44,740 nt of DNA from Phycisphaerae bacterium (GTDB lineage: Bacteria; Planctomycetota; Phycisphaerae; Sedimentisphaerales; UBA12454), in contig JAPLMW010000025.1 in NCBI GenBank assembly GCA_026386845.1, positions 1 to 44,740 of the forward strand, given 5' to 3'. The notes under the pieces were generated by a model. It had not been told where the DNA came from. It was given only the letters and a program-made list of their open reading frames with translations, and searched no databases. The translations under genes and the position numbers were made by a program. This document shows, one piece after another, positions 3,422 to 42,561 of this stretch. Position 1 is the stretch's first letter, and the number at the start of each line of letters is the position of its first letter.

Positions 3422-4031
3422 ACCAAATCCTTCAAAATTAAATTAAACGCTTACGCCGGACGCCCGGCCGATATTCCGGAAAAAATTTCAAATAACACTG
3501 CCAAATAAGAGATGACTTAGCGGAAAGTTCCTTCGGAAAATCCTACCTTAACATGCTATTTCATCAGCCTATTACGCAAATATTTATTTGTGGAATAATA
3601 CCCTTTTTGACCTTTTATAGCAACAGAATATTTTTTATATCTACTTTTTTTCAGATAATTTAAGGCTGTTTGGCAGTTTAGCGAGGCATTTAACGACCCA
3701 AAATGTCTTTTTTCGCTTGTTTTGACCTGCCCTGAACGGTGTTGAGAGGCAAGTTAAAAACTAAAAGTGAAAAATAGTTATTGGTTATCAGAAAAACGGT
3801 TATTTGTTGTCGGTTTTTTCGGTTGAGTTTGGAAAGCAAGAGGGATATAATTTTTATCGAATTTATAAAAATGTAATGAACTGAGGCCCCGATGAGATAG
3901 TTTAAGAGGTATGCAATGAGGTAGTCCAAGAAACATCTCACGGGGTAAAGAAAAATTATGGATGATGACAACTGTCAAACAAAGTATAAATATTAAGTAA
4001 TAGTCAAGGATAATAAAATAGAAGGGCTAAA
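3422..4031. other. 610-bp intergenic region: RRM leader and left edge of accessory island
   Basis: This holds the upstream region of the RRM gene (minus strand) and the leader of the methyltransferase gene (plus strand). A GC-rich palindromic patch lies near 3454-3480, and the DNA becomes strongly AT-rich from about 3590. The inverted palindromic repeat (separate entry) lies at 3884-3949. Short minus-strand frames of 66-93 codons here run through that repeat and have no Shine-Dalgarno or recognisable domain, so they are not called. No convincing sigma-70 promoter for the methyltransferase gene was found, although A/T-rich -10-like hexamers occur around 3985-4015. Confidence 0.5.
3884..3949 (-). 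repeat. palindromic repeat, copy A (left boundary of island)
   Basis: On the plus strand this reads AGGCCCCGATGAGATAG (3884-3900), a 33-base middle, then CATCTCACGGGGTAAA (3934-3949). Its reverse complement matches copy B at 9853-9894 over both arms (16 and 17 bases, identical). Only the middle differs (33 versus 9 bases). Each copy can fold into a hairpin, CCCCG-TGAGAT pairing with ATCTCA-T-CGGGG. Confidence 0.85.
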
Positions 4032-5312
4032 TTGGCACTCATGGAACGAAATAAAGTAACTTTAGATTTAAAATCTATCAAATCAGACATACGTTGGTCA
4101 TTTGCTGATATTAGCCGAAAAGAAACACTTTATGCAACACATGGTTATCACCGTTATCCTGCAAAATTTATTCCCCAGTTAGTAAAAAAAGTAATAATTA
4201 AATATTCTAAACCTGGGGATATTGTTCTCGACAGTTTTGGAGGGTGTGGAACGACTTTGGTTGAATCTAAGCTCAGTGGACGTGAAAGTATTGGCTTGGA
4301 TGTGAATAAAATTGCAGTTCTTATTGCTAAAGCAAAAACAGAGGAGATAGAACCATGTTTTTTGGAACAAAATAATAAATTATTATTGGAAAAAATTAAA
4401 AGTAGTAAAGATAAACGCAATTACTATGAAAAAGCAAATGAACGATTACGCTATTGGTTTAAGGCATCTGCATTCAATAAATTAAAAATAATTCATGATT
4501 GTATTCAAGAAGAAAAAAATAGTAAAACAAGGCGATTTTATAATTGCTGCTTTTCAAATATACTGAAAAATTGCTCAATCTGGTATTCAAGAAGCATTAA
4601 GCCAATGCGTGATAATACTAAAATAATAGAAAAGCCATTTTCTGCATTTACCGAACATTTAAATTACATGACACAAAGGAACAAAGATTTTTTTAATTTA
4701 ATAAAAATAAAAAAAGTTCAAGAAATATGCTGTCATATGAAAAAAGGGGATGCACGCAAAATAAAACTTCCAAGTGAATATGTTGATTTAATTGTTACAT
4801 CGCCACCTTATGTTACTTCCTACGAATATGCCGATTTGCATCAGCTTTCTATATTATGGTTTAACTTTACTGATGATATAAAAAAAATCAAAAAAGATTT
4901 TGTGGGAACTTCTTCTAGAAAAAAAGCTAAAAGAAATATCGATAGCGAATTGGCGAAAGCAACCATTCAAAAATTGAGCGATATTGAAAGAAGCCATGCA
5001 AAACATGTAAGCAATTATTATTCCGATCTTTCGCGTTGTTATAAAGAAATGTATCGTGTACTTAAGAAGGGTAAACATGCCTGTATTATAATCGGGAACA
5101 CAGAATACAAGAATATTAAGATTCCTAATGCAGAAGTAACTGTCGAGTTGCTAAAAAATATTGGTTTTAAATATATAAAAATCTTAAAAAGAAAATTGTC
5201 TTCAAAAATTTTTACTCCATATAGGGATGAATCCGGAAAATTTACGGATGCTGGGCATGGAGGAAAAAGAAGAATATATCAATATGAATATCTCATTTTT
5301 GCCAAGAAATAA
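4032..5312 (+). CDS. predicted N4-cytosine DNA methyltransferase (first gene of island cassette)
   Basis: SAM-dependent DNA methyltransferase of about 426 residues. Near the N terminus is the segment YHRYPAKFIPQLV, typical of site-specific amino-methyltransferases. Motif I is VLDSFGGCGTT (residues 65-75, SAM binding). Catalytic motif IV is TSPPY (residues 256-260); the S-P-P-Y form is the usual sign of m4C enzymes, in contrast to D/N-PPY of adenine enzymes. About 180 residues separate motifs I and IV, enough to hold a target-recognition domain as in the alpha order. Start: a GAAGGG motif lies five bases before TTG 4032 and fourteen before ATG 4041, so TTG is weakly preferred; ATG would give 423 residues. 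It is AT-rich compared with the surrounding core genes. No restriction nuclease is adjacent; the next two genes follow closely in the same direction. Confidence 0.88.
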   Translation: MALMERNKVTLDLKSIKSDIRWSFADISRKETLYATHGYHRYPAKFIPQLVKKVIIKYSKPGDIVLDSFGGCGTTLVESKLSGRESIGLDVNKIAVLIAKAKTEEIEPCFLEQNNKLLLEKIKSSKDKRNYYEKANERLRYWFKASAFNKLKIIHDCIQEEKNSKTRRFYNCCFSNILKNCSIWYSRSIKPMRDNTKIIEKPFSAFTEHLNYMTQRNKDFFNLIKIKKVQEICCHMKKGDARKIKLPSEYVDLIVTSPPYVTSYEYADLHQLSILWFNFTDDIKKIKKDFVGTSSRKKAKRNIDSELAKATIQKLSDIERSHAKHVSNYYSDLSRCYKEMYRVLKKGKHACIIIGNTEYKNIKIPNAEVTVELLKNIGFKYIKILKRKLSSKIFTPYRDESGKFTDAGHGGKRRIYQYEYLIFAKK

Positions 5313-5345: not shown

Positions 5346-7592
5346 ATGATAAAACAGGGAATTTTTAAACCTAGGCCACATGCTCGCATTATCACCATGA
5401 TAGGTGAGCAGCTTATTAGAAATGAAAAAGTTGCCTTAATGGAGCTTATAAAAAATTCTTATGATGCAGATGCTTCTTGGGCGCAAGTACGCTTTATCAA
5501 TTTTAAAAAAGATGAAGATGGTAATCTGGAAATTAAAAAAAATTCTGTAATTGAAATAGAGGATGATGGTATTGGAATGTCTTTCGATATTATTCAGAAG
5601 TCTTGGGTAAATCCTGCCTCTCCATATAAATTTTTGATGAAAAAGGGAGGCATAGATACTACAAAAAAAGGAAGAATTATCCAAGGCGAAAAGGGCATAG
5701 GTAGGTTTGCGGTTTATAAACTTGGCTCGACTGTTGAAATTTTTACCAGACCAGAAAAAGACAATACAGATGAAGTCTATTTGAAGAGCGATTTATCTAT
5801 TTATGACGATGAACTTATAGGTGAAAAAAAGCAGAAATCTGATAAACCGCTTTATTTGGATGATATCGAATATAGCTATGAAATCAGAATGCCTGAGACC
5901 ATTAAGCAGAAAGAGATTGTATTTAAAAACAGCAAGACTAAAAGACCTAATCATGGGACCCTTATTAGGGTAACTAATCTAAAAGGACATTGGACAGAGA
6001 GTAAAATCAAAGAAATATTCAATGATTGCTTGAAATTAATTTCTCCATTTAACAATACTGATTTTAGTTGTGATATTGTTGTTAATGGTGCTACTTATTT
6101 CACTGAGAAAGAACAGGAGCGTTTGAGAGGTTTATTAGAACTGGCTCCGATTAAAATTGAAGGGCGAGTTGATGATAAAGGTAATGTAAATTATACGCTT
6201 GGTCGTAAGAAAAAAGGGCAGATAACTTTAAGGGATATGTCAGAAGATGAAGAAGTGAAAGAACAATTTTTCGATAAACAAGGAAAATTGAAACGAAAGC
6301 CAGAAAGTGGTCCCTTTGGTTTTAGATTCTACGTCTTTGATCTTGACCGTAAAGCTTCTCTTGAATCATCTTTATCAAAAGATGATAGGGATATCATTAA
6401 AAGTCATAGGGTCTATCTCTATAGAGATGGTGTCAGGGTTTATCCTTATGGAGATCCTACTGATGATTGGCTTGGAATTGATATCAAAAGAGGAACTGTT
6501 AAGGCGGGGAGTTATTTGAGTAATGATCAAGTCATTGGCTATGTTGAAATTAGTAATGAACACAACCCTGCCCTAAGGGATAAAACTAATCGTGAAGGGT
6601 TAATGGATATAGGTTACAGCTACGAAGATTTTAAAGCAATTATCTTTGGGATTTTAGGATTCCTTAGGACGCAGTTCAAAAAATATAAGAGTGATCAGCA
6701 AGATAAAAGAGAAAGGCTTGCCGAGGAAGAAGGTATATTGGGTACTGAGAAGAAAGTTAAGGACGATATAGATGTTCTCAAAAAATATTTAGAAGACAAA
6801 GAAGACGCCAAGGGCAAAAAACTGGTTAAATTTATCGAAGAAAATTATGTCAAAGAAAAAAGTGTATTAAATGAAAGAGTCGAGATCGTTGAGGACCTTG
6901 CCGGTGTTGGAATGACAGTAGATGCCGCTTCTCATGATTTGATGATTATGATGGAGCGAGCCAAAGAAACGCTTAATCTACTTTTTGAAATGATGCAAGG
7001 CAAGGAGATTGATATTCCAAGGTTAAAAGAAACCACAGAGAAAGTTAGAGGGCAATTTGCATTTATTGAGGATCAATTGCATGGCATTCAACCTTTATTT
7101 AGATCTTCTAGGAGACATAGCAAAAATTGGAGAATAAAAGAAATTATGGAGAAAGTAAAGCTGTACTATAGCGTGCCTATTAAAGATAGAAAAATTAAGG
7201 TGGTTGTTGAAGAAAAAGGATCGCCCCTTGTTGTAAAATGCTCTGAGGGTATTCTTTTACAGGCTTTCATTAATCTAATAGATAATGCGGTTTATTGGTT
7301 AACAACAGCAGATAGAAAAGACAAAACAATAAAGGTTGTAATGGACGGAAATAAATCAGAGGTCATTTTCGCTGACAATGGTCCGGGGATAAAGAAAGAT
7401 GATCAACCATATATTTTCAAACCATTTTTTACGACAAAAGGCGTTAGAGGAAGAGGGCTGGGATTGTATATAACAAGACAGTTGCTTGGACGGTATGATT
7501 TCTCTGTAGATCTTATAACAAAAGACAAAAGTAAAATTTTGTCTGGTGCAAATTTTATAATAAATTTTAGTGATATCGAAACTGAAGATTAA
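5346..7592 (+). CDS. dual GHKL ATPase: Hsp90/MutL/MORC-like N domain plus histidine-kinase-like C domain
   Basis: A 748-residue soluble protein with two GHKL ATP-binding modules. The N-terminal module has an N box ELIKNSYDADA (33-43), DDGIGM (73-78) and GEKGIGRFAVYKLG (114-127), the pattern of Hsp90, MutL and MORC ATPases. A middle region (about 200-440) is followed by a charged coiled coil (about 455-510). A HisKA-like helix follows, with DAASHDL (candidate phospho-His at about 530). The C-terminal module has an N box INLIDNAVYW (about 642-651), DNGPGI (677-682), an F box FKPFFTTKG and GRGLGLYI, as in sensor kinases. There is no membrane segment. It starts at ATG 5346 after a purine-rich GGAAAGAGAG tract. 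It lies 33 bp after the methyltransferase gene and 16 bp before the receiver gene, so an operon is likely. Function is inferred: an ATP-driven DNA or protein clamp coupled to a cytoplasmic phosphorelay. Confidence 0.85.
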   Translation: MIKQGIFKPRPHARIITMIGEQLIRNEKVALMELIKNSYDADASWAQVRFINFKKDEDGNLEIKKNSVIEIEDDGIGMSFDIIQKSWVNPASPYKFLMKKGGIDTTKKGRIIQGEKGIGRFAVYKLGSTVEIFTRPEKDNTDEVYLKSDLSIYDDELIGEKKQKSDKPLYLDDIEYSYEIRMPETIKQKEIVFKNSKTKRPNHGTLIRVTNLKGHWTESKIKEIFNDCLKLISPFNNTDFSCDIVVNGATYFTEKEQERLRGLLELAPIKIEGRVDDKGNVNYTLGRKKKGQITLRDMSEDEEVKEQFFDKQGKLKRKPESGPFGFRFYVFDLDRKASLESSLSKDDRDIIKSHRVYLYRDGVRVYPYGDPTDDWLGIDIKRGTVKAGSYLSNDQVIGYVEISNEHNPALRDKTNREGLMDIGYSYEDFKAIIFGILGFLRTQFKKYKSDQQDKRERLAEEEGILGTEKKVKDDIDVLKKYLEDKEDAKGKKLVKFIEENYVKEKSVLNERVEIVEDLAGVGMTVDAASHDLMIMMERAKETLNLLFEMMQGKEIDIPRLKETTEKVRGQFAFIEDQLHGIQPLFRSSRRHSKNWRIKEIMEKVKLYYSVPIKDRKIKVVVEEKGSPLVVKCSEGILLQAFINLIDNAVYWLTTADRKDKTIKVVMDGNKSEVIFADNGPGIKKDDQPYIFKPFFTTKGVRGRGLGLYITRQLLGRYDFSVDLITKDKSKILSGANFIINFSDIETED

Positions 7593-7608: not shown

Positions 7609-8823
7609 ATGGATTTATTAAAGGGTGTGGGAGTTGTTATTGACGATGGAATCGGTGAACAGGATAACATTAACAAAATAATTGAAAAAGTTCACGAAAA
7701 AGGGATTCCAACAACAGAATTTAAAGACATCGATTCAGCAGAGAAATGCGTTCAAAATCTTCTTGCAGTGAATTTTATAATTCTCGATTGGAAGATGGAT
7801 TCTGTATCAGTTGAAGCGCCTATAGGTGTAGGAGCAGGACAAGAATTAGTTACAAATACTAAACAGAAAGTTATAGAATTTATAAAGGAACTGAAAAAAT
7901 ATTGTTTTGCGCCCATCTTTATATTTACGAATGAAGCGCAAGCAGATATCGAATCTGATATATTAGCAAAGTTACGGAGTGCAGGATTATATTTTGATCA
8001 AGAGGGAAAAGATTTTATATATGTAAGAAATAAAAAAGAAATCTTGAAGTATGGCCGATTGTTCAAGGAGATTAATAAATGGATTAATAAAATGCCATCG
8101 ATATACATTTTAAAAGCATGGGATAAGGAATTTTTTGAGGCGAGGAACGAGATATTCTGGGATTTATATAATAGAAGCCAAGGCGGTTGGCCAAAAGTTC
8201 TATGGGACCATTATAAAGAAGAAAACGAAATTCCTTATATCTGTATTAACGAATTAATATGCCAGATAATATCTGGTAAAATAACATTGCGGGATGTTGA
8301 TGAAAATATAATTGTTAGGTATCGCAAAAAACCTGCTTTGAAAGAAATAAAAGATATTTTCAAAAGAGTTATGTTTCAAGACGGTGAATTATCTAACTAT
8401 AAGTTGGAAGGAATTAAGCCCGGAGATATATTTAAGGATAACGGTAAGTATTACTTAAATATTAGACCTGAATGCGATACGGTGGGGGGAAGAGCTGGAG
8501 CTAGATTAGTCTATTTACTCGAGGGAAACAGGGTTGCTAATACAGATTTGAAAAAACTGAAGAAAAGGCAATATTCGTTTTCTGGTTTGAATGCGAAGAT
8601 TAACGAAGCTTTCGTATGGTTGCTAGAAGGAGACGGGATTGTCAAGTTTGATTTCCGAAATATTGAAGCAAAAGATTTCTCTGGAATCGAAAAAAAGCGG
8701 CTATGCAGGTTGCTTCCTCCATATATCACAAATATTCAACAAAGATATTCTTCTTTTTTGGGGAGATTTGGTGTGCCTAGATTGCCCAAAACAATCGAGG
8801 TCGATATTTTGAAAACCTCCTAA
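7609..8823 (+). CDS. receiver-domain protein with unknown C-terminal half (cassette effector or partner)
   Basis: A 404-residue soluble protein. The first 150 residues look like a divergent response-regulator receiver: acidic pair D12/D13 (VVIDDG), candidate phospho-Asp D60 (IILDWKM), Thr at about 107 (IFIFTN) and Lys at about 142 (RNKKE). The usual pocket is therefore complete, although about 20 extra residues lie between D60 and T107. Residues 165-404 match no family I recognise; they contain an aromatic-rich segment near WDLYNRSQGGWPKVLWDH and a Gly/Arg motif GGRAGARLVYLL. There is no HTH or nuclease signature. ATG 7609 is chosen because GAGG lies eight bases upstream; an extension to 7570 would overlap the previous gene. 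Being 16 bp after the dual GHKL gene, it is the natural phosphotransfer partner (inference). Confidence 0.8.
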   Translation: MDLLKGVGVVIDDGIGEQDNINKIIEKVHEKGIPTTEFKDIDSAEKCVQNLLAVNFIILDWKMDSVSVEAPIGVGAGQELVTNTKQKVIEFIKELKKYCFAPIFIFTNEAQADIESDILAKLRSAGLYFDQEGKDFIYVRNKKEILKYGRLFKEINKWINKMPSIYILKAWDKEFFEARNEIFWDLYNRSQGGWPKVLWDHYKEENEIPYICINELICQIISGKITLRDVDENIIVRYRKKPALKEIKDIFKRVMFQDGELSNYKLEGIKPGDIFKDNGKYYLNIRPECDTVGGRAGARLVYLLEGNRVANTDLKKLKKRQYSFSGLNAKINEAFVWLLEGDGIVKFDFRNIEAKDFSGIEKKRLCRLLPPYITNIQQRYSSFLGRFGVPRLPKTIEVDILKTS

Positions 8824-9002: not shown

Positions 9003-9250
9003 ACCCATATAGTTAATTGAAAATTTAATATTTTGTGTTTTATAATAGTAACTTACTAGTGCAAAAGAAGTTACGGCGAATCCTGCCTCGAAAAACACAA
9101 TTCCAAGCCCATTAATTCAAATCAAAAGTCAAATATAAGTATAAAGATATCCTGTTTATTCAAATCCTAATTTCTAATATCTAAATCCTAAATAAATCCT
9201 AATTACCAAAAATGAAAATAAACGATGCCGTTTATTTAAAGGAGTTAATT

Positions 9251-9835
9251 ATGTATCTTAACCTTCGTGTCAAAATTCCGGCTATTATCGAATCCATCGT
9301 TGTTTATTTTTTGCTGCGCTATAGAAAAAAACATTACGGCTTTGCGTTTCGGCGCATCAAACTAATTACAAACGAACACGTCGATGCAAAGCATCAATAC
9401 ACCATCGTTGACCAGGACGATTATCAGAAATTGGCCGGGTATCCGTGGCAGCTTTTTGAAAACAAAAGTGGTAGTTTCTATGCTGTCCAGTTTAACAATG
9501 GAAGATTTATTAAAATGCACAGGGTTATTATGAATGCTCCGCCCGGCAAAATCGTTGACCATAGAAATCACGAAGGCCTCGACAACACTAAACGCAATCT
9601 GCGTTTCGCGACAATCGCCCAGAATAATTATAACAATCGGAAAGTAAAAAACCGCAGTTCAAAATACAAAGGCGTTTGTCGCCGTAAAGAAAGGAATAAA
9701 TGGCACGCATATATAAGTTATAACTGCAAAAAGATACATTTAGGATATTTCGACAATGAGGAAGATGCCGCAAGGGTTTATGATAATGCCGCCAAACTTT
9801 ATCACGGCGAATTCGCGGTTTTAAATTTCCCTTAA
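9251..9835 (+). CDS. HNH endonuclease with C-terminal AP2 DNA-binding domain (homing-type)
   Basis: A 194-residue protein. About residues 40-125 carry an HNH-type nuclease core: the stretch MHRVIMNAPPGKIVDHRN holds the first His residues, followed by H-x-x-x-L-D-N and N-L-R-x-A-T-x-x-x-N. About residues 135-192 form an AP2/ERF-type three-stranded DNA-binding domain (SKYKGVCRRK, W-x-A-x-I, LGYFDNEEDAARVYDNAA). HNH-AP2 proteins are known as mobile homing endonucleases in phages and bacteria. ATG 9251 is preferred over an in-frame ATG at 9212 because AAGGAG lies seven bases before it. It has its own strong promoter and sits at the right end of the island, 17 bp before the right-hand inverted repeat. 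Its composition is less AT-rich than the three-gene cassette, so it may have arrived separately. Confidence 0.92.
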   Translation: MYLNLRVKIPAIIESIVVYFLLRYRKKHYGFAFRRIKLITNEHVDAKHQYTIVDQDDYQKLAGYPWQLFENKSGSFYAVQFNNGRFIKMHRVIMNAPPGKIVDHRNHEGLDNTKRNLRFATIAQNNYNNRKVKNRSSKYKGVCRRKERNKWHAYISYNCKKIHLGYFDNEEDAARVYDNAAKLYHGEFAVLNFP

Positions 9836-9852: not shown

Positions 9853-9894
9853 TTTACCCCGTGAGATGCCGCTTCGGCTATCTCATCGGGGCCT
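9853..9894 (+). repeat. palindromic repeat, copy B (right boundary of island)
   Basis: TTTACCCCGTGAGATG (9853-9868), CCGCTTCGG, then CTATCTCATCGGGGCCT (9878-9894). It folds into a hairpin in which GCCG/CGGC extends the stem. Both arms are identical in inverted orientation to copy A at 3884-3949. Lying between the HNH-AP2 gene and the convergent subtilase gene, it could also terminate transcription. Confidence 0.85.
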
Positions 9895-9905
9895 TAATTT
9901 GACCT

Positions 9906-11549
9906 CTATGGATTGTAATATCGCGCATCGACTTTAAGCCAGTTGTCGGCAAACTCGGTAAAATCCAGCCAATTGACGATACCATCAGGGACTATATCGG
10001 TATCAGGTTCTGCACTGAGCCAATCAATGGCTATTTGATTTAAATCATTCCTATTTACAACATAATCTATATCAAAATCGCCTGTAAGCGGCGGCAAAAT
10101 TTCAAAAGCCAGACCATAATTGCGGCTTTTCGAAGTGGTATTTTTCAGTACCACCGTATAATTACCGTCATTAGGAAGGATTAAATCTATTTTTTCGAGA
10201 TTGTTTACGTTGTTAGCTTCTGAATACACAACCATATCGCAGGGGTCTTTGATAGTTATATCTATATTAAACTTGTTCGGCTCTTCATCTTTATATTCCC
10301 ATGGCCAGGAGGGTTGTTTTCTTGTTCTTGTAACAGCTCTGTTCCATGTAACTGTCAGGACTAATCGTTCTCTGCGCTGAGCGTTTATGAAATATGTATG
10401 TGTTTGCGAATCGCTGAGGGTATTATACGCCCAGCCGCTTGTCGAATTTATCGGTGTGCCGGCAGCGACTTTGCCGGCAGATAATGTAAGATACGCACGG
10501 TAAGCGTCAATTCGGCCGTAACCTCGATTTGGATCCCATACCCGATTCGCCGGGTCTGTAAAATTGCCGCTTTTATCCCGTATATTTGGAAAAGTCGAAT
10601 TGACAATCACAGCTTTTATAACCTCATTATGGCCGTCATTTGGCTCAGTGGTGCTGTCGGCATATCCGAGCAGCAAAGCTGCAACACCGCCGGTCTGAGG
10701 AACGGAAAAACTTGTAGCCCCATCTTTGACGGTAGTGTAAGAGGCCGTGTTGCTTCCGATAGAAGGCGTCGTCTGGCTGCTGCCCGGACAGGATATTTCC
10801 GGTTTTTTTCTGCCGTCAATTGTCGGGCCGAAATTTGATAAATTTCCGACTCTGAGATAAAAATTATTCGGCTCATCAATCAATGCTGCGGTTGTTATGC
10901 CGTTGTAAGCATCACCGAAAATAGAAGGAGTCGACGGACCGTTGCCGCTTGCCAAAGCAAAAATAACATTATTAGTATATGCGAAATAATCATACATTAA
11001 GCTCCAGGAACTTGAACCGTTTGCGTCACCGAATGCGGGCGATGGTAATGCTATAGCAGTAACGAGCACTCTGCAATTATAAGTGTTAATTAATGCTTCT
11101 AACGCATCTTCGACATAGCCGGTCGATATACTGTTATAATCGTTGACGACTCTTGCCGAATAAAGATTACAGTCCGGCGATACGCCGATATCATTAGGAT
11201 GTCCTGTCCAGCCTCTGCTTGCGATAATACCTGCGACCCATGTGTCATGTCCTGGAAATGAGCCTCCCATATAGTTCACATCGCTTCCGGAGTAATCGGA
11301 ATTGAAAACATGAACATTGTTCGGGTCGTTTGGGTCTTTATCTTTAAATGCCTCGTGTGTATCCCGGACGTTGCGTGCACTAATCAACCCGACATTTATT
11401 CCCTGTCCGGTACAACCCAGTTCATGAACTGCCTGAGCATTGGAGCCGTTTTCCGCCGTTGAACCCTGCAAAGCGTAAACATTACCGCAAAAAACCGCCA
11501 ATAACAGCAATGTTATCGGACAATGCCTATATACAAACATCTTCTTCAT
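9906..11549 (-). CDS. secreted subtilase-like (S8) protein with dockerin-like C terminus, catalytic Asp absent
   Basis: A 547-residue exported protein. An N-terminal signal peptide (about residues 1-27) is followed by an S8-like domain. The His motif is PGHDTWVAGIIA (H101), the oxyanion Asn lies in LASGNG and the Ser motif is GATSFSVPQTGG (S280). Where subtilases have the catalytic Asp (usual form V-x-D-[ST]-G), this protein reads NVGLISARN with Ser at position 57. The active site therefore appears incomplete. A beta-rich domain follows (about 355-480). The C-terminal 60 residues form two dockerin-like motifs (GDFDIDYVVNRNDLNQIAIDWL, split at D-x-D, and DGIVNWLDFTEFADNWL). The start is ATG 11549 with AGGA eight bases upstream; GTG 11552 is adjacent. 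It may be a binding protein or a degenerate protease. Confidence 0.82.
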   Translation of the reverse strand: MKKMFVYRHCPITLLLLAVFCGNVYALQGSTAENGSNAQAVHELGCTGQGINVGLISARNVRDTHEAFKDKDPNDPNNVHVFNSDYSGSDVNYMGGSFPGHDTWVAGIIASRGWTGHPNDIGVSPDCNLYSARVVNDYNSISTGYVEDALEALINTYNCRVLVTAIALPSPAFGDANGSSSWSLMYDYFAYTNNVIFALASGNGPSTPSIFGDAYNGITTAALIDEPNNFYLRVGNLSNFGPTIDGRKKPEISCPGSSQTTPSIGSNTASYTTVKDGATSFSVPQTGGVAALLLGYADSTTEPNDGHNEVIKAVIVNSTFPNIRDKSGNFTDPANRVWDPNRGYGRIDAYRAYLTLSAGKVAAGTPINSTSGWAYNTLSDSQTHTYFINAQRRERLVLTVTWNRAVTRTRKQPSWPWEYKDEEPNKFNIDITIKDPCDMVVYSEANNVNNLEKIDLILPNDGNYTVVLKNTTSKSRNYGLAFEILPPLTGDFDIDYVVNRNDLNQIAIDWLSAEPDTDIVPDGIVNWLDFTEFADNWLKVDARYYNP

Positions 11550-11603
11550 CACTCCATTCCTATAGGAAAATTATAGCAGAAAACGTTTTAAAAATCAACA
11601 GAT

Positions 11604-37452: not shown

Positions 37453-37641
37453 TGGTGCTATTTCTACAAGGCCAATCCAATCCAGCCACATGGAAAGTGG
37501 AAGAGACGGCAGATAGTAAAAACTGCGCAATTCGGCCTTGATTTTCCTGCAGGGATGCGAGCATATAGGTTTGTGCATTGTGCGCAACCGGTGCTGGAAT
37601 TTGGTCTATTTAACAAATAAATATTTAGGAGGATGGAAGTA

Positions 37642-40600
37642 ATGAAACGGTTATTAACAACAGATAAAGCAAAAACAATTATTAGTTCGCTGGTCTTATG
37701 CGCTATGGTAACTGCCGCTTTTGTTACACCTGCAAACGCCTATGACTATAAGGCAAAGTTCATACAGGAAGCCAACTGGCTCACCACTCAGCAGGTAACC
37801 AGCGGAGGAAATCTCGGCGGAATAGTGGAAGGTGAAGACTATACCACCGTCGTAGAAACGGATAACACACAAGAAGCTATATGGATATGGTCTCGCTATG
37901 CTGAATTAACCGGAGACTACACAAAATATATAACAAATATAAATAATGCTTGGACTTACTGCCTCGCATTCCCGGCATGGACTGAAGGTGGGACCCCTAC
38001 AACGCCACTGCCTTATTACAGCACATATAACATTGGTTGGGGTTTGCTGGCAGAGATGAAATACAGGCAGGTCTATCTGGGCAGGGCCGAATACGTTAAC
38101 CATACATCCTACGGCACAAGTTGCGCAAACACTCTGGTTAGCTATACCCCCGGCACAAGCAACGCTACGGATGCTTTGTGTCTCGGAATTGCCTCTGGTG
38201 CCCTGTATAAATATGGCGTAGATGTCAACAGTATCACATACAAAAACAGGGCTGTTGTTCTCGGAGGTAGCGTTAGAACGTGGCTCGGTACTACCTCAAA
38301 CTTCGCTGCAGAAAGTTGGGCGGTTTCAGGCGGCATTGCTGTCTGGGGTGTTCTGAACTCATACTATCAAGACCCCTGTAACGCCAGCGGAGCAGCCGCC
38401 TGGGCGGAAACTGCAAACACATATATGCCTCTTAATGCAATGAACGGTTCAACTAACAACTATGAATACGGCATGGATGGATGGTATTCATGGGGCCATT
38501 ATGCTCTCATTCAGTACCGAGGCGCTGATTCATTCACCAAATACAATAATGTCATCAATAAAATCTTAGATTCCGATAACGATCACGATGGCGGCATACG
38601 TCAGGGTCTTACTTATGCCGATACTTCGGATTATGGCTGGGCTACGGACATACCGCAGTTTGGCGTAAACTACGGTCTAATCGGAACAACAACTTACACT
38701 GTTTCCGGTACGATAACATCAGGCGGTTCACCCCTCGCCGGCGTACTGATAAGAGGTCTGCCCGGCACCAACCTTACCGACGCGAACAGTTGGCCTGTTA
38801 CTGATGCAAACGGTTTTTATACCACTCAGGTTCCTGCCGGTTTCTACGGCACAGTAACACCAGCAAAGGTTGGATATTCGTTCTCGCCGGCCAACAGAAC
38901 ATACAGCAATTTATCATCTAATCAAACAGCTCAGAATTATACCGCAGCAACAAGTACCTATGTTCAATTATTAGATTCATGGGTAACAGGTACAACTCAC
39001 ACAAAAGTAACAGGCACTAATCGCGCATTGGTCTTTGTCGCACACGCAAAGACTAGTGGTGTAACCCTAAATACCGTAACCTACGGCGGACAAGGAATGA
39101 CAAAAATCATCGATAAAATTATTGGCTCATCCTCCAGCCGGGCTTATGTTGCAGCATTTATACTCAAGGATGCAAACATTGTTGCTGCAACCAATACCAC
39201 CTTTACTCCCACTTGGAGCGGCACTGCACCTACCACTGTCACATACACCAGTGTACTCCTTCAGGATGTTAATCAAACAACTCTTACAGGCGCTTCTGCC
39301 AGTAACGGTTTAACAACTGTTTACTCAGTAGCAACAACTCCGATTGCCACGAGCAACGGGGATATGATAATTGAAAATGCTGCAAGTTCTGTCGTGGGCA
39401 CATATCTGCCTACAACCGGCTGGACCAAAGATATTGACCTTTCAGCGACTGGTTATGATGGTATGGATGCGCACAGAAACGCTGCGGGTATCAATGAAAC
39501 ACCGGCAATAACCCAAGCTTCGGCTAACCAGTCGATCATTGGTTTCGTGGTCAAGGCTGCACCGCCGTCTGTTACTCGCAAATTGACGGTTTCTTCCTCG
39601 GCGAACGGCACTGTAACTACGCCAGGTATCGGCGATTTCAATTATCCCGACGGCACTTATGCAAGTATCGTTGCATCAGCAAGCGCCAATTATCATTTCG
39701 TTAACTGGACTGGCTCGGCTGTAACGGCAGGCAAAGTTGCTAGCCCAAATTCACCAAGCACGACCGTCCTTATGGATGCCAATTACACAGTCCAGGCTAA
39801 CTTCACCATAGATCAAAAGTCATTGACAACTTCTGCCTCAAGCGGTGGTACTGTAACCACTCCAGGCATAGGAACATACTGGTATGACTATAACAGTCCT
39901 GCAAGTATCGTTGCATCAGCAAACGCAAACTATCATTTTGTTAACTGGACAGGCTCAGCTGTAACGGCGGGCAAGGTTGCCAGTCCAAATTCACTAAGCA
40001 CAACCGTCCTTATGGACGCAAACTATGCAGTCCAGGCCAACTTTGTTAAAGACCAGAGGTCATTGCTAACCTCTGCCTCAGGCGGTGGCACTGTAACCAC
40101 TCCAGGCATAGGAACATACTGGTATGATTACAATACACCTGCCAGTATCGTTGCATCAAATAATGCAAATTATCATTTCGTTAACTGGACAGGTACTGCC
40201 GTAACGGCAGGTAAGGTAGCCAGCCCGACATCAGCAACTACAACAGTTACAATGGATGCAAACTATACTGTCCAGGCTAATTTCGCTATAGATCAAAAGT
40301 CATTGCTAACCTCTGCTTCAAGCGGTGGCACTGTTACAACGCCCGGTATAGGAACATACTGGTATGACTATAACAGTCCTGCTGGCATCGTTGCATCAGC
40401 AGTTGACCCCAATTACCAGTTTGTCAACTGGACAGGCACGGCCGTAACGGCAGGTAAAGTTGCTAATCCAACTTCACCAAACACAACCGTCCTTATGGAT
40501 GCCAATTACACAGTCCAGGCTAACTTCAACCCCATAGTTCCTGACGTCGTAGGTATGACTCAGGCTGCAGCGACCACAGCGATTACCGCGATTGATAATC

Positions 40601-42561
40601 TAACTGTCGGCAATGTAACACAGGAGTGCAGTGACACTGTAGCTGCCGGTCTTGTTATAAGCCAAAGCCCGATTGGCGGAACACAAGTCAATATCGGCTC
40701 ATCCGTTGATATAGTTGTTTCACTCGGCCTGCCGATTATACCTGATGTAACAGGTAAGGCCCAGGCCGTTGCAGAGGCTAATATCGTCGCTGCAACATTT
40801 ACAGTTGGTAATGTAACTACTGCCTACAGCGATACAGTTGCTGTCGGCAATGTAATAAGTCAATTGCCAATCGGAGGCACCGCTGCAACAAGCGGAACTG
40901 CGGTTGATATAGTAGTTTCACTCGGCCTGCCGATTATACCTGATGTAACAGGTAAGGCCCAGGCCGTTGCCGAGGCTAATATCGTCGCTGCAACATTTAC
41001 AGTTGGTAATGTAACTACTGCCTACAGCGATACAGTTGCCGCAGGCAATGTAATAAGTCAATTGCCAATCGGAGGCACCGCTGCAACAAGCGGAACTGCG
41101 GTTGACCTGGTAGTATCCAACGGCCCACAGCCGCTGCAGGTGAGAGACGACTTCAACGATAACAGGCGAGGCGCAATGTGGCTGGTGTCTGTAGAACAGA
41201 ATGCAGGGATAACCGAGGATGCCAACAGGCTAAACATAACGGCTGTCGGCGGCCAGATGGATTTGGTTACTCCATGCATCGGCCACTGGAAGATGAACGA
41301 CAACGCAGCCAATAAAACAGTTCTCGACAGTTCAGATGCCAACCACAACGGCACTGCAGCGCGGGACACGAATGTTCTGGCTACCACAGGCAAAATAAAT
41401 GGTGCGTTGATTTTCAACGGGACTTCTGATTACATCGATGTAGGGAATGTTATAGGTACCGGGGCATATACAAAAGTTGCCTGGGTTAAAAGAGCTGATA
41501 CAAATGGAACAGTTTATAACAATATAATTTCCACAGGTAATACTGATTATTCTCATATTTTCTGGGCTCCAAGTGCTTATTCGTTCAAGCTTTCTGCAGG
41601 GAATATGAATGCCAATCGTGTTCAGGATCCCAATTCGTTAGCGCCTGATGTTTGGTATCAAGTGGCAGTTACTTTTGACCCTAATGTAAGCTCTGGAAAA
41701 ATGGTTTTGTATAAAAATGGGGCTCAGGTAGCTAGTGCCACAAGTGTTCCAACCCAGTCAAGCAGCCCGAAAACTTACATTGGAAGGTATGCTAGTGGCT
41801 ACTACTTCAAGGGCACAATTGACAATGTGATGATATTCAACAAGGCACTAACGGCAGATGAGATAGCAGCTCTATATAACACCGGCAGCGGTACCGAGAC
41901 AATGCCTGCATCTGCCGGCGGCAGCGGTGAGTATTCAGCCAACGGCTGGAGCATCGATGCCAATGAGAACTTCCAGGCCAAAGTCGATTTCCATTACATC
42001 ACCGCCTCCGGTCCGGCCGGCTGGGTTGCGATAACCATCGAGAGCAACTATGATAACTATGTCTCGATTATAGCAGGCGCTGACGGTAACTTGCCGTACT
42101 TCGAGTATGAGAAGGTCGTCGATGGCAATGTAACATCAGCCCAGGCATCGAGAGGCTCGAATGACGGCACACTTTACATCTCTTACGATGCAGCTTTGGA
42201 TGAACTGTATTTAAGCTACAGCGACTATGGTGCCGGCAATGCATGGCAGACCATAACAGGTTTGTTGGCCGGGCAATGGTATTCTGAATCGGTCAGAATA
42301 GCTGTTGGCGGCGGTTCTGCCGGCGATGTCATCGACAACAATCAGGCTTATCTGGACAATTTTGAGGTTACTTCCGGACTGCTTATCGGCTGGCCGCCGG
42401 TAACTGACATTGACGGCAATGGTTATATCGAGTGGCTTGATCTTGAGATAATGTGTGAAAACTGGCTCCAGACCGGTTCGAATGTCCCGGGTGATATTCA
42501 TAAGGATGAGGACAACATTGTGAACTTCCTGGACTTCGCTGACTTTACTTTGGCCTGGTAA
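37642..42561 (+). CDS. giant secreted multidomain protein with InlB repeats, PASTA repeats, nested LamG and dockerin-like end
   Basis: About 1639 residues. The Sec signal peptide (about 1-35) ends in the AxA-type site PANA. Residues 36-350 are an aromatic-rich, probably alpha-helical toroid domain without a clear family. Residues 355-430 form a carboxypeptidase-regulatory-like beta domain (TVSGTITSGGSPLAGVLI). Residues 435-640 form a beta domain (VTYGGQGMTKI). Residues about 646-963 are four InlB-B-type repeats in an exact 240-bp register (GTVTTPGIG, NYHFVNWTG, VQANF). Residues about 965-1160 are three PASTA repeats (PDVTGKAQAVAEANI). A beta-sandwich is interrupted by a LamG domain (about 1210-1420), and a dockerin-like pair closes the chain (DIDGNGYIEWLDLEIMCENW). 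ATG 37642 follows AGGAGG by nine bases. Probable role: extracellular or cell-surface polysaccharide binding or degradation (inference). Confidence 0.88.
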   Translation: MKRLLTTDKAKTIISSLVLCAMVTAAFVTPANAYDYKAKFIQEANWLTTQQVTSGGNLGGIVEGEDYTTVVETDNTQEAIWIWSRYAELTGDYTKYITNINNAWTYCLAFPAWTEGGTPTTPLPYYSTYNIGWGLLAEMKYRQVYLGRAEYVNHTSYGTSCANTLVSYTPGTSNATDALCLGIASGALYKYGVDVNSITYKNRAVVLGGSVRTWLGTTSNFAAESWAVSGGIAVWGVLNSYYQDPCNASGAAAWAETANTYMPLNAMNGSTNNYEYGMDGWYSWGHYALIQYRGADSFTKYNNVINKILDSDNDHDGGIRQGLTYADTSDYGWATDIPQFGVNYGLIGTTTYTVSGTITSGGSPLAGVLIRGLPGTNLTDANSWPVTDANGFYTTQVPAGFYGTVTPAKVGYSFSPANRTYSNLSSNQTAQNYTAATSTYVQLLDSWVTGTTHTKVTGTNRALVFVAHAKTSGVTLNTVTYGGQGMTKIIDKIIGSSSSRAYVAAFILKDANIVAATNTTFTPTWSGTAPTTVTYTSVLLQDVNQTTLTGASASNGLTTVYSVATTPIATSNGDMIIENAASSVVGTYLPTTGWTKDIDLSATGYDGMDAHRNAAGINETPAITQASANQSIIGFVVKAAPPSVTRKLTVSSSANGTVTTPGIGDFNYPDGTYASIVASASANYHFVNWTGSAVTAGKVASPNSPSTTVLMDANYTVQANFTIDQKSLTTSASSGGTVTTPGIGTYWYDYNSPASIVASANANYHFVNWTGSAVTAGKVASPNSLSTTVLMDANYAVQANFVKDQRSLLTSASGGGTVTTPGIGTYWYDYNTPASIVASNNANYHFVNWTGTAVTAGKVASPTSATTTVTMDANYTVQANFAIDQKSLLTSASSGGTVTTPGIGTYWYDYNSPAGIVASAVDPNYQFVNWTGTAVTAGKVANPTSPNTTVLMDANYTVQANFNPIVPDVVGMTQAAATTAITAIDNLTVGNVTQECSDTVAAGLVISQSPIGGTQVNIGSSVDIVVSLGLPIIPDVTGKAQAVAEANIVAATFTVGNVTTAYSDTVAVGNVISQLPIGGTAATSGTAVDIVVSLGLPIIPDVTGKAQAVAEANIVAATFTVGNVTTAYSDTVAAGNVISQLPIGGTAATSGTAVDLVVSNGPQPLQVRDDFNDNRRGAMWLVSVEQNAGITEDANRLNITAVGGQMDLVTPCIGHWKMNDNAANKTVLDSSDANHNGTAARDTNVLATTGKINGALIFNGTSDYIDVGNVIGTGAYTKVAWVKRADTNGTVYNNIISTGNTDYSHIFWAPSAYSFKLSAGNMNANRVQDPNSLAPDVWYQVAVTFDPNVSSGKMVLYKNGAQVASATSVPTQSSSPKTYIGRYASGYYFKGTIDNVMIFNKALTADEIAALYNTGSGTETMPASAGGSGEYSANGWSIDANENFQAKVDFHYITASGPAGWVAITIESNYDNYVSIIAGADGNLPYFEYEKVVDGNVTSAQASRGSNDGTLYISYDAALDELYLSYSDYGAGNAWQTITGLLAGQWYSESVRIAVGGGSAGDVIDNNQAYLDNFEVTSGLLIGWPPVTDIDGNGYIEWLDLEIMCENWLQTGSNVPGDIHKDEDNIVNFLDFADFTLAW
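40723..41118 (+). repeat. 198-bp tandem duplication encoding two near-identical PASTA repeats
   Basis: The units 40723-40920 and 40921-41118 begin with CTCGGCCTGCCGATTATACC and differ at only a few positions (for example GCAGAG/GCCGAG, GCTGTCGGC/GCCGCAGGC). The preceding PASTA copy (40530-40722) is much more divergent, so this pair is a recent duplication. Confidence 0.9.

Follow-up and report, generated by a model that had tools for sequence, protein, structure and literature searches.

The closest described relatives of this locus are the HEF_HK (PF19191)/Response_reg_2 (PF19192) pairs. Bellieny-Rabelo et al. (2021; PMC8011034) published the domain order HATPase_c_3, HEF_HK, and HATPase_c for this family, in which 174 of 222 HEF_HK proteins show the double-ATPase architecture. 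A receiver-like gene was linked in 91.6% of 644 regions, linkage to restriction-modification (R-M) genes was also reported, and the receivers were described as being without any other known domain. A paraMORC origin has been proposed for the architecture (PMC8011034; Iyer et al. 2008, PMC2292703). The same domain order occurs in the kinase encoded within the 44,740-nucleotide stretch of DNA analysed here (the window), and the architecture, which the preliminary description treated as new, is therefore not so. The features of the locus are as follows, with window positions for genes and repeats and residue numbers for protein parts:

3879..3949, no strand assigned: dispersed repeat, left copy, inverted relative to the right copy (repeat search of the window)
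4032..5312, forward strand: DNA methyltransferase of the N6/N4 class (probable start ATG at 4041; motifs FGGCGT and TSPPY)
5346..7592, forward strand: double-GHKL sensor histidine kinase gene (ORF of 748 aa)
6933..6935, forward strand: codon of H530, the predicted phospho-acceptor His in A-S-H-D (invariant; aligned to LvrB and ZraS)
7612..8823, forward strand: receiver protein gene (Response_reg_2, E 1.6e-5)
9853..9899, no strand assigned: dispersed repeat, right copy (repeat search of the window)
Kinase residues about 1-150: GHKL clamp
Kinase residues about 176-420: S5-like middle domain
Kinase residues 425-484: long helix
Kinase residues 488-588: DHp hairpin carrying H530
Kinase residues 593-740: kinase-type ATP domain
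Receiver residues 1-150, REC; 150-255, helical linker; about 265-390, MazF-fold output domain
Receiver phospho-acceptor set: acceptor D59, acidic pair D11/D12, T106, and K141

The locus resembles the HEF_HK/Response_reg_2 pairs in its HATPase_c_3 domain, in a DHp-like region with a His and an acidic residue, and in its C-terminal HATPase_c domain, as well as in having a receiver-type gene adjacent and a DNA methyltransferase next door. However, the window kinase falls under the HEF_HK gathering score (12.2 versus 24.1 bits), with the matched region (521-590) being the correct one, and the window receiver falls narrowly under that of Response_reg_2 (25.6 versus 27 bits). Among the sets scanned, an E value of 0.01 was reached by only 1 of 56 kinases for HEF_HK and by 3 of 78 receivers for Response_reg_2. 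The branch to which this locus belongs was thus largely invisible to the 2021 description. It also differs in its methyltransferase, which is of the N6/N4 class and fixed upstream, whereas C5 methylases dominate the literature set, and in having an output domain that can now be recognised as having a MazF-type fold, which would give the receivers of the 2021 family a candidate output domain. The branch, its fixed three-gene layout, and the MazF-fold output of its receiver are undescribed in PMC8011034 or the other literature examined, and no experimentally tested version of the system was found in the open-access literature searched.

More distant dual-GHKL kinases, from Acinetobacter, Rhizorhabdus, Stenotrophomonas, Enterobacter, and Campylobacter, also score under the HEF_HK cut-off, and their downstream partners vary in length (for example, 357, 633, and 637 aa). 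The family thus extends beyond its published bounds, with output ends that differ among members. In the relative on a Stenotrophomonas plasmid (L145, 3977-8098), a C5 methyltransferase lies upstream, accompanied by a dual-GHKL kinase in which the position of H530 is not His in the alignment and by a short receiver-like ORF. Also present there are an unassigned 226-aa ORF, in which SHG and SCGTA motifs occur, and, on the opposite strand, a SIR2 gene. Pfam and PDB sequence searches gave no support for reading the ORF beside this kinase as caspase-like.

Two ATP sites and a candidate phospho-His in the kinase

Pfam places HATPase_c_3 at kinase residues 28-141 (E 1.8e-15) and HATPase_c at residues 637-738 (E 2.5e-18), both above the gathering score, and all 56 of the scanned kinase relatives carry the first at the N terminus and the second at the C terminus of a single protein. 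Conservation was assessed in 86 full-length homologues, with identity to the window protein down to about 33%. Mean column identity is only 45% across this alignment, in which 65 positions are invariant, including N, G1, and G2 residues of both ATP sites together with H530. At the N-terminal site, the invariant residues are E33, N37, D40, D42, D73, G75, G77, R110, Q113, G114, and K116-R120, giving an invariant G2 motif of GxKGIGR. At the C-terminal site, they are N643, L644, D646, N647, D677, G679, G681, K698, G702, and G704-Y708, with an invariant G2 motif of GxGLGLY. The S5-like middle domain contributes R360, D361, R364, and R416. Judged from the aligned sequences, the invariance of both ATP sites and of H530 is far beyond chance.

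The preliminary description had located both sets of boxes correctly, and their key residues are invariant: the N box, G1, and G2 correspond to E33-A43, D73-M78, and G114-G127 in the N-terminal site and to I642-W651, D677-I682, and G702-I709 in the C-terminal one. Its HisKA-like His at about 530 is exactly H530, which is present in 86/86 homologues and is the only one of the kinase's eight His residues that does not vary. The following residue, D531, is kept in 85 of the 86 and is Glu in the remaining one. Of the pair D73/D74 proposed for mutation, D73 is the invariant G1 Asp, whereas D74 is variable (D in 38 and N in 38 homologues).

The N boxes of the two sites differ, being ExxxN (E33 and N37) in the N-terminal site and NxxxN (N643 and N647) in the C-terminal site. 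Among GHKL enzymes, ExxxN with its general-base Glu belongs to ATP-hydrolysing clamps, and NxxxN belongs to histidine kinases. The HisKA-type boxes H, N, G1, F, and G2 are present in order, with the N box of the kinase type.

A profile built from 79 homologues was compared with solved structures. It matched two groups: HtpG and GRP94 over residues 13-227, and LvrB (E 1.2e-21), ZraS, HK853, and further sensor proteins over residues 479-740. The H530 segment aligns onto the phospho-His motifs MAHEI of LvrB and VAHEI of ZraS. The AlphaFold2 model of the monomer has a mean pLDDT of 84.0 and a pTM of 0.61, the latter leaving the placement of the domains relative to one another uncertain. In this model, there is a GHKL fold at both ends, so that neither site lacks one, with a beta/alpha domain between them, the helix at 425-484, and a helical hairpin (488-551/557-588) that bears H530. 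Foldseek matches the N half to TRAP1, Hsp90, and DNA-bound MORC2, over about 460-520 alignment columns for MORC2 and TRAP1, and the C half to HK853 in complex with RR468. On the evidence of the profiles and the predicted model, the kinase from residue 1 to about 430 groups with Hsp90 and MORC2, and residues from about 488 to 745 group with HK853, LvrB, and ZraS.

The fusion of a clamp-type and a kinase-type ATPase, with a phospho-His lying between the two, as put forward from the letters of the sequence, has held in each of these analyses (Pfam, conservation, profile comparison, and Foldseek). It is plausible, as was further suggested, that autophosphorylation is driven by closure of the clamp: both sites have been kept whole, and the clamp is connected to the DHp hairpin by a long helix (425-484, then 488-551). 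The function of the kinase can be read only jointly with the methyltransferase gene upstream and the receiver protein gene downstream.

The receiver protein and its output domain

The receiver gene begins at position 7612, 20 bases past the kinase stop, and its ATG is preceded by a purine-rich stretch. In the alignment of 84 receivers, D11, D59, and K141 are invariant (84/84), position 106 is T or S in all 84, and position 12 is D, N, or E. As far as alignment can tell, the receiver keeps the complete phospho-acceptor set.

The predicted structure (pLDDT 90.7) consists of the REC domain, helices to about residue 255, and a beta-rich domain at 265-390. Foldseek searches of the PDB with this model return receivers and, independently of these, several MazF toxins (probability 1.00, E 1.5e-3 to 4.4e-3, target TM 0.56-0.66), and the overall top match among viral models is a PemK/MazF protein (E 1.7e-4, TM 0.68). 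The MazF match was assigned to residues of about 265-390 by elimination of the REC domain. No Pfam family, including MazF and the DNA-binding families, matches the output domain. Profile alignment with MazF by hhalign, local and global, was not significant (probability 0.7%), and homology to MazF is not claimed. The MazF-type Arg before strand 2 and the Ser/Thr after strand 3 are not conserved in the receiver output domains. The residues that are conserved include GD(I/L)F, N283-I-R285-P-x-C288-D289, and RLLPPYITxxQQ...RxGxPxxP. In a minor subtype, LITPECD replaces NIRPxCD, and a distant homologue on a Campylobacter plasmid retains the CD and RxGxP positions. We conclude from the models that the output domain has a predicted MazF fold without the MazF active site, and a putative action directed at nucleic acid is likely.

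Gene order, distribution, and surroundings of the cassette

The upstream gene matches Pfam N6_N4_Mtase (E 5.7e-22) and the PADLOC model MTase_II (E 1.7e-55). Gene order was compared across 80 loci from the genome collection, with only those loci counted in which the contig was long enough. The order methyltransferase-kinase-receiver on one strand is constant, with the methyltransferase upstream at 77/77 and the receiver downstream at 79/79 of the loci with room, a count that includes two receivers (L100 and L102) too diverged for blast, whose alignment shows all of the invariant residues. The median intergenic gaps are -4 nt. A search for a fourth conserved gene found no family common to more than 9 of about 85 loci, and no cognate restriction endonuclease was recognised in the window cassette. 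A minority of the loci adjoin R-M genes (type III Mod/Res pairs, BsoBI, and Eco57I-type). In three of them (L063, L096, and L103), a type III Mod gene and a Res-like gene flank the cassette, each a few bases away. In seven proteobacterial loci (L044, L046, L052, L067, L073, L076, and L092), the cassette is preceded by a second methyltransferase of another subtype (IHPFPARMAP...), which in most of them is encoded on the other strand. PADLOC models matched neither the kinase nor any of 78 receivers. A single-sequence scan of viral contigs gave no match; the alignment query worked.

By the titles of the records, the hosts include Omnitrophota (with a kinase 83% identical to that of the window), Bacteroidota, Cloacimonadota, Pseudomonadota, Bacillota, Planctomycetota, Verrucomicrobia, Acidobacteria, Nitrospirales, Elusimicrobia, and Actinomycetota, along with two archaeal metagenome-assembled genomes (MAGs; Methanoperedens and Euryarchaeota); because many of the records are MAGs, an individual assignment could reflect a binning error. 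In the window's own phylum, only 6 of 392 genomes have a match at E 1e-30, the window's genome included. The GC content of the cassette is 30-34% versus 43% for the window, and its GC3 is 22-31% versus 44-49%. An AT-rich composition, a patchy distribution, and an occurrence in many phyla fit the expectation for a mobile module of the defence type.

Distances between kinases track those between receivers closely (Spearman 0.87, against a highest value of 0.23 in 500 permutations), and those of the methyltransferases track less (0.44, against a highest permutation value of 0.16). It appears from the sequences as if the signalling pair were a constant core with which different modification specificities are exchanged. 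Covariation between the kinase DHp and receiver REC blocks is about twofold over expectation at an effective depth of 34 sequences, but it was set aside because other blocks are similarly enriched.

A hairpin-like inverted repeat pair, GGCCCCGATGAGATAG ... CATCTCACGGGG, flanks the AT-rich cassette together with an ORF with HNH and AP2 domains. The repeat is found at 9 genome sites at <=2 mismatches versus 0 for the reversed control, and it may be a dispersed element lying at the borders of the insertion. The ORF within the bracketed stretch (window 9212-9835, 207 aa) has HNH_3 and AP2 domains and is homing-endonuclease-like. A gene for a subtilisin-like secreted protease with a C-terminal dockerin-like repeat, recognised by eye, adjoins the cassette (9906-11552). 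Farther along, the window encodes a 1642-aa protein with PASTA, Flg_new_2, and laminin-G-like domains (37633-42561).

A proposed pathway and its relation to known systems

The reading that we favour, with somewhat more confidence than doubt, is that the locus encodes a presumably soluble phosphorelay linked to DNA modification, which runs from H530 to D59, switches a MazF-fold effector, and probably serves to defend against foreign DNA. Its parts do not stand equally firm. The conservation of the residues concerned strongly supports a predicted phosphorelay from H530 to D59, and we infer the trigger of the pathway and the action of the effector. As suggested by its families, the N-terminal GHKL-S5 module would act like Hsp90 and MORC proteins, as a dimer clamp driven by ATP, and its closure would be relayed along the long helix to the HisKA-like hairpin. 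The most likely trigger of closure would be foreign or unmodified DNA, with the clamp closing on DNA itself or on a partner bound to it, a step that we propose with greater reserve. The C-terminal kinase-type ATP domain, whose residues and fold are seen, would then phosphorylate H530, and the phosphoryl group would pass to D59 of the neighbouring receiver, in which the acceptor set is seen. Phosphorylation of D59 may switch the MazF-fold output domain, which would act on nucleic acid or another essential target; the outcome might be attack on nucleic acid or growth arrest, although this is again more weakly indicated. The methyltransferase would mark host DNA and so hold the pathway off. The overall logic would be that of an R-M system with the phosphorelay as its restriction arm. 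The R-M genes that adjoin some loci, and the C5 methyltransferase and SIR2 gene near the Stenotrophomonas kinase, count in favour of this reading. Counting against it are the lack of PADLOC matches for kinase and receivers, a likeness to MazF that is confined to the fold, the indecisive covariation, and the residue other than His aligned to H530 in the Stenotrophomonas relative.

A more specific form of this proposal is that the locus is a self/non-self sensor, in which the MORC-like clamp reads DNA that is without the mark of the neighbouring methyltransferase, and the phosphorelay, rather than a nuclease subunit, acts through the receiver-controlled MazF-fold effector. We hold this form only tentatively and think that it may well prove wrong. 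If it is true, the locus would be an R-M system in which a phosphorylation switch replaces the restriction enzyme, which bears on how a host DNA mark could be read by a signalling pathway instead of a nuclease. The cassette is compact, hops between phyla, and offers a single residue to mutate at each step (E33, H530, D677, D59, and C288/D289), so the idea that closure of the clamp on DNA drives the phosphorelay is directly testable.

Other readings of the same genes have to be weighed. The pair could be an ordinary regulatory two-component system in which the phosphorylated receiver controls the expression or activity of the methyltransferase or of a separate R-M system and does not itself act as a direct effector. 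A regulatory role has been put forward for the related HEF_HK/Response_reg_2 pairs (PMC8011034), and the location of some cassettes in or next to R-M operons of types III and II would suit it. However, the output domain has a MazF-type fold and matches no DNA-binding family, and most loci do not have a recognisable restriction gene as nearest neighbour, so that the methyltransferase is often the only gene locally available for regulation; we consider this reading unlikely. Bellieny-Rabelo et al. suggested nucleotide sensing on the grounds that the N-terminal domain sits at the usual position of a sensor (PMC8011034), in which case that GHKL site would be a mere nucleotide sensor and the level of ATP or NTP, not DNA, would set the kinase. 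We regard this as improbable: the hydrolysis-type site is wholly kept, including the ExxxN Glu and the S5-like domain with its four invariant residues, the N half matches the fold of DNA-bound MORC2, and the linkage to a DNA methyltransferase is universal.

It is also conceivable that the kinase half is a relic retained for dimerisation, the protein being a pure MORC-like clamp and the receiver domain a docking module. Pseudokinases and pseudo-receivers do exist, and the alignment of a residue other than His with H530 in the Stenotrophomonas relative would agree with such a state in one distant case. Within the branch, however, H530, N643, N647, D677, and the G2 box of the kinase and D11, D59, and K141 of the receiver are all invariant, which makes a relic very improbable.

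The proposed phosphorelay shares elements with several known systems. Like the MORC/paraMORC GHKL-S5 ATPases (Iyer et al. 2008, PMC2292703), the window kinase has an N-terminal GHKL domain with ExxxN, an S5-like domain, and an R-M neighbourhood. In the paraMORC families described there, the extensions include nucleases and TIR domains, and the usual neighbour is a helicase (PMC2292703), whereas the extension of the window protein is a histidine kinase and its partner is a receiver protein. The output domain of that receiver resembles the MazF/PemK toxins (PF02452) in fold, but it differs from them in having no Pfam match, no significant profile-profile score, and none of the catalytic positions kept. 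In VcSduA, a paraMORC3-like Shedu protein, a GHKL clamp gates a defence nuclease, and mutation of the ATPase abolishes defence (PMC12137116). The likeness lies in the use of a GHKL clamp as a regulatory domain, with an effector that is putative here; VcSduA fuses its clamp directly to the nuclease, whereas the window clamp would reach its effector via a phosphorelay. Detocs, a two-component anti-phage defence system, consists of the kinase DtcA, the buffer DtcB, and the response regulator DtcC (PMC11728103). The window locus would share its two-component logic and, presumably, its role in defence, but it has no DtcB-like buffer gene, its third gene encodes a methyltransferase, and its sensor is a GHKL clamp. 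If the proposal is correct, what would be new is the combination of a GHKL clamp, as in VcSduA, and two-component logic, as in Detocs, with a modification enzyme.
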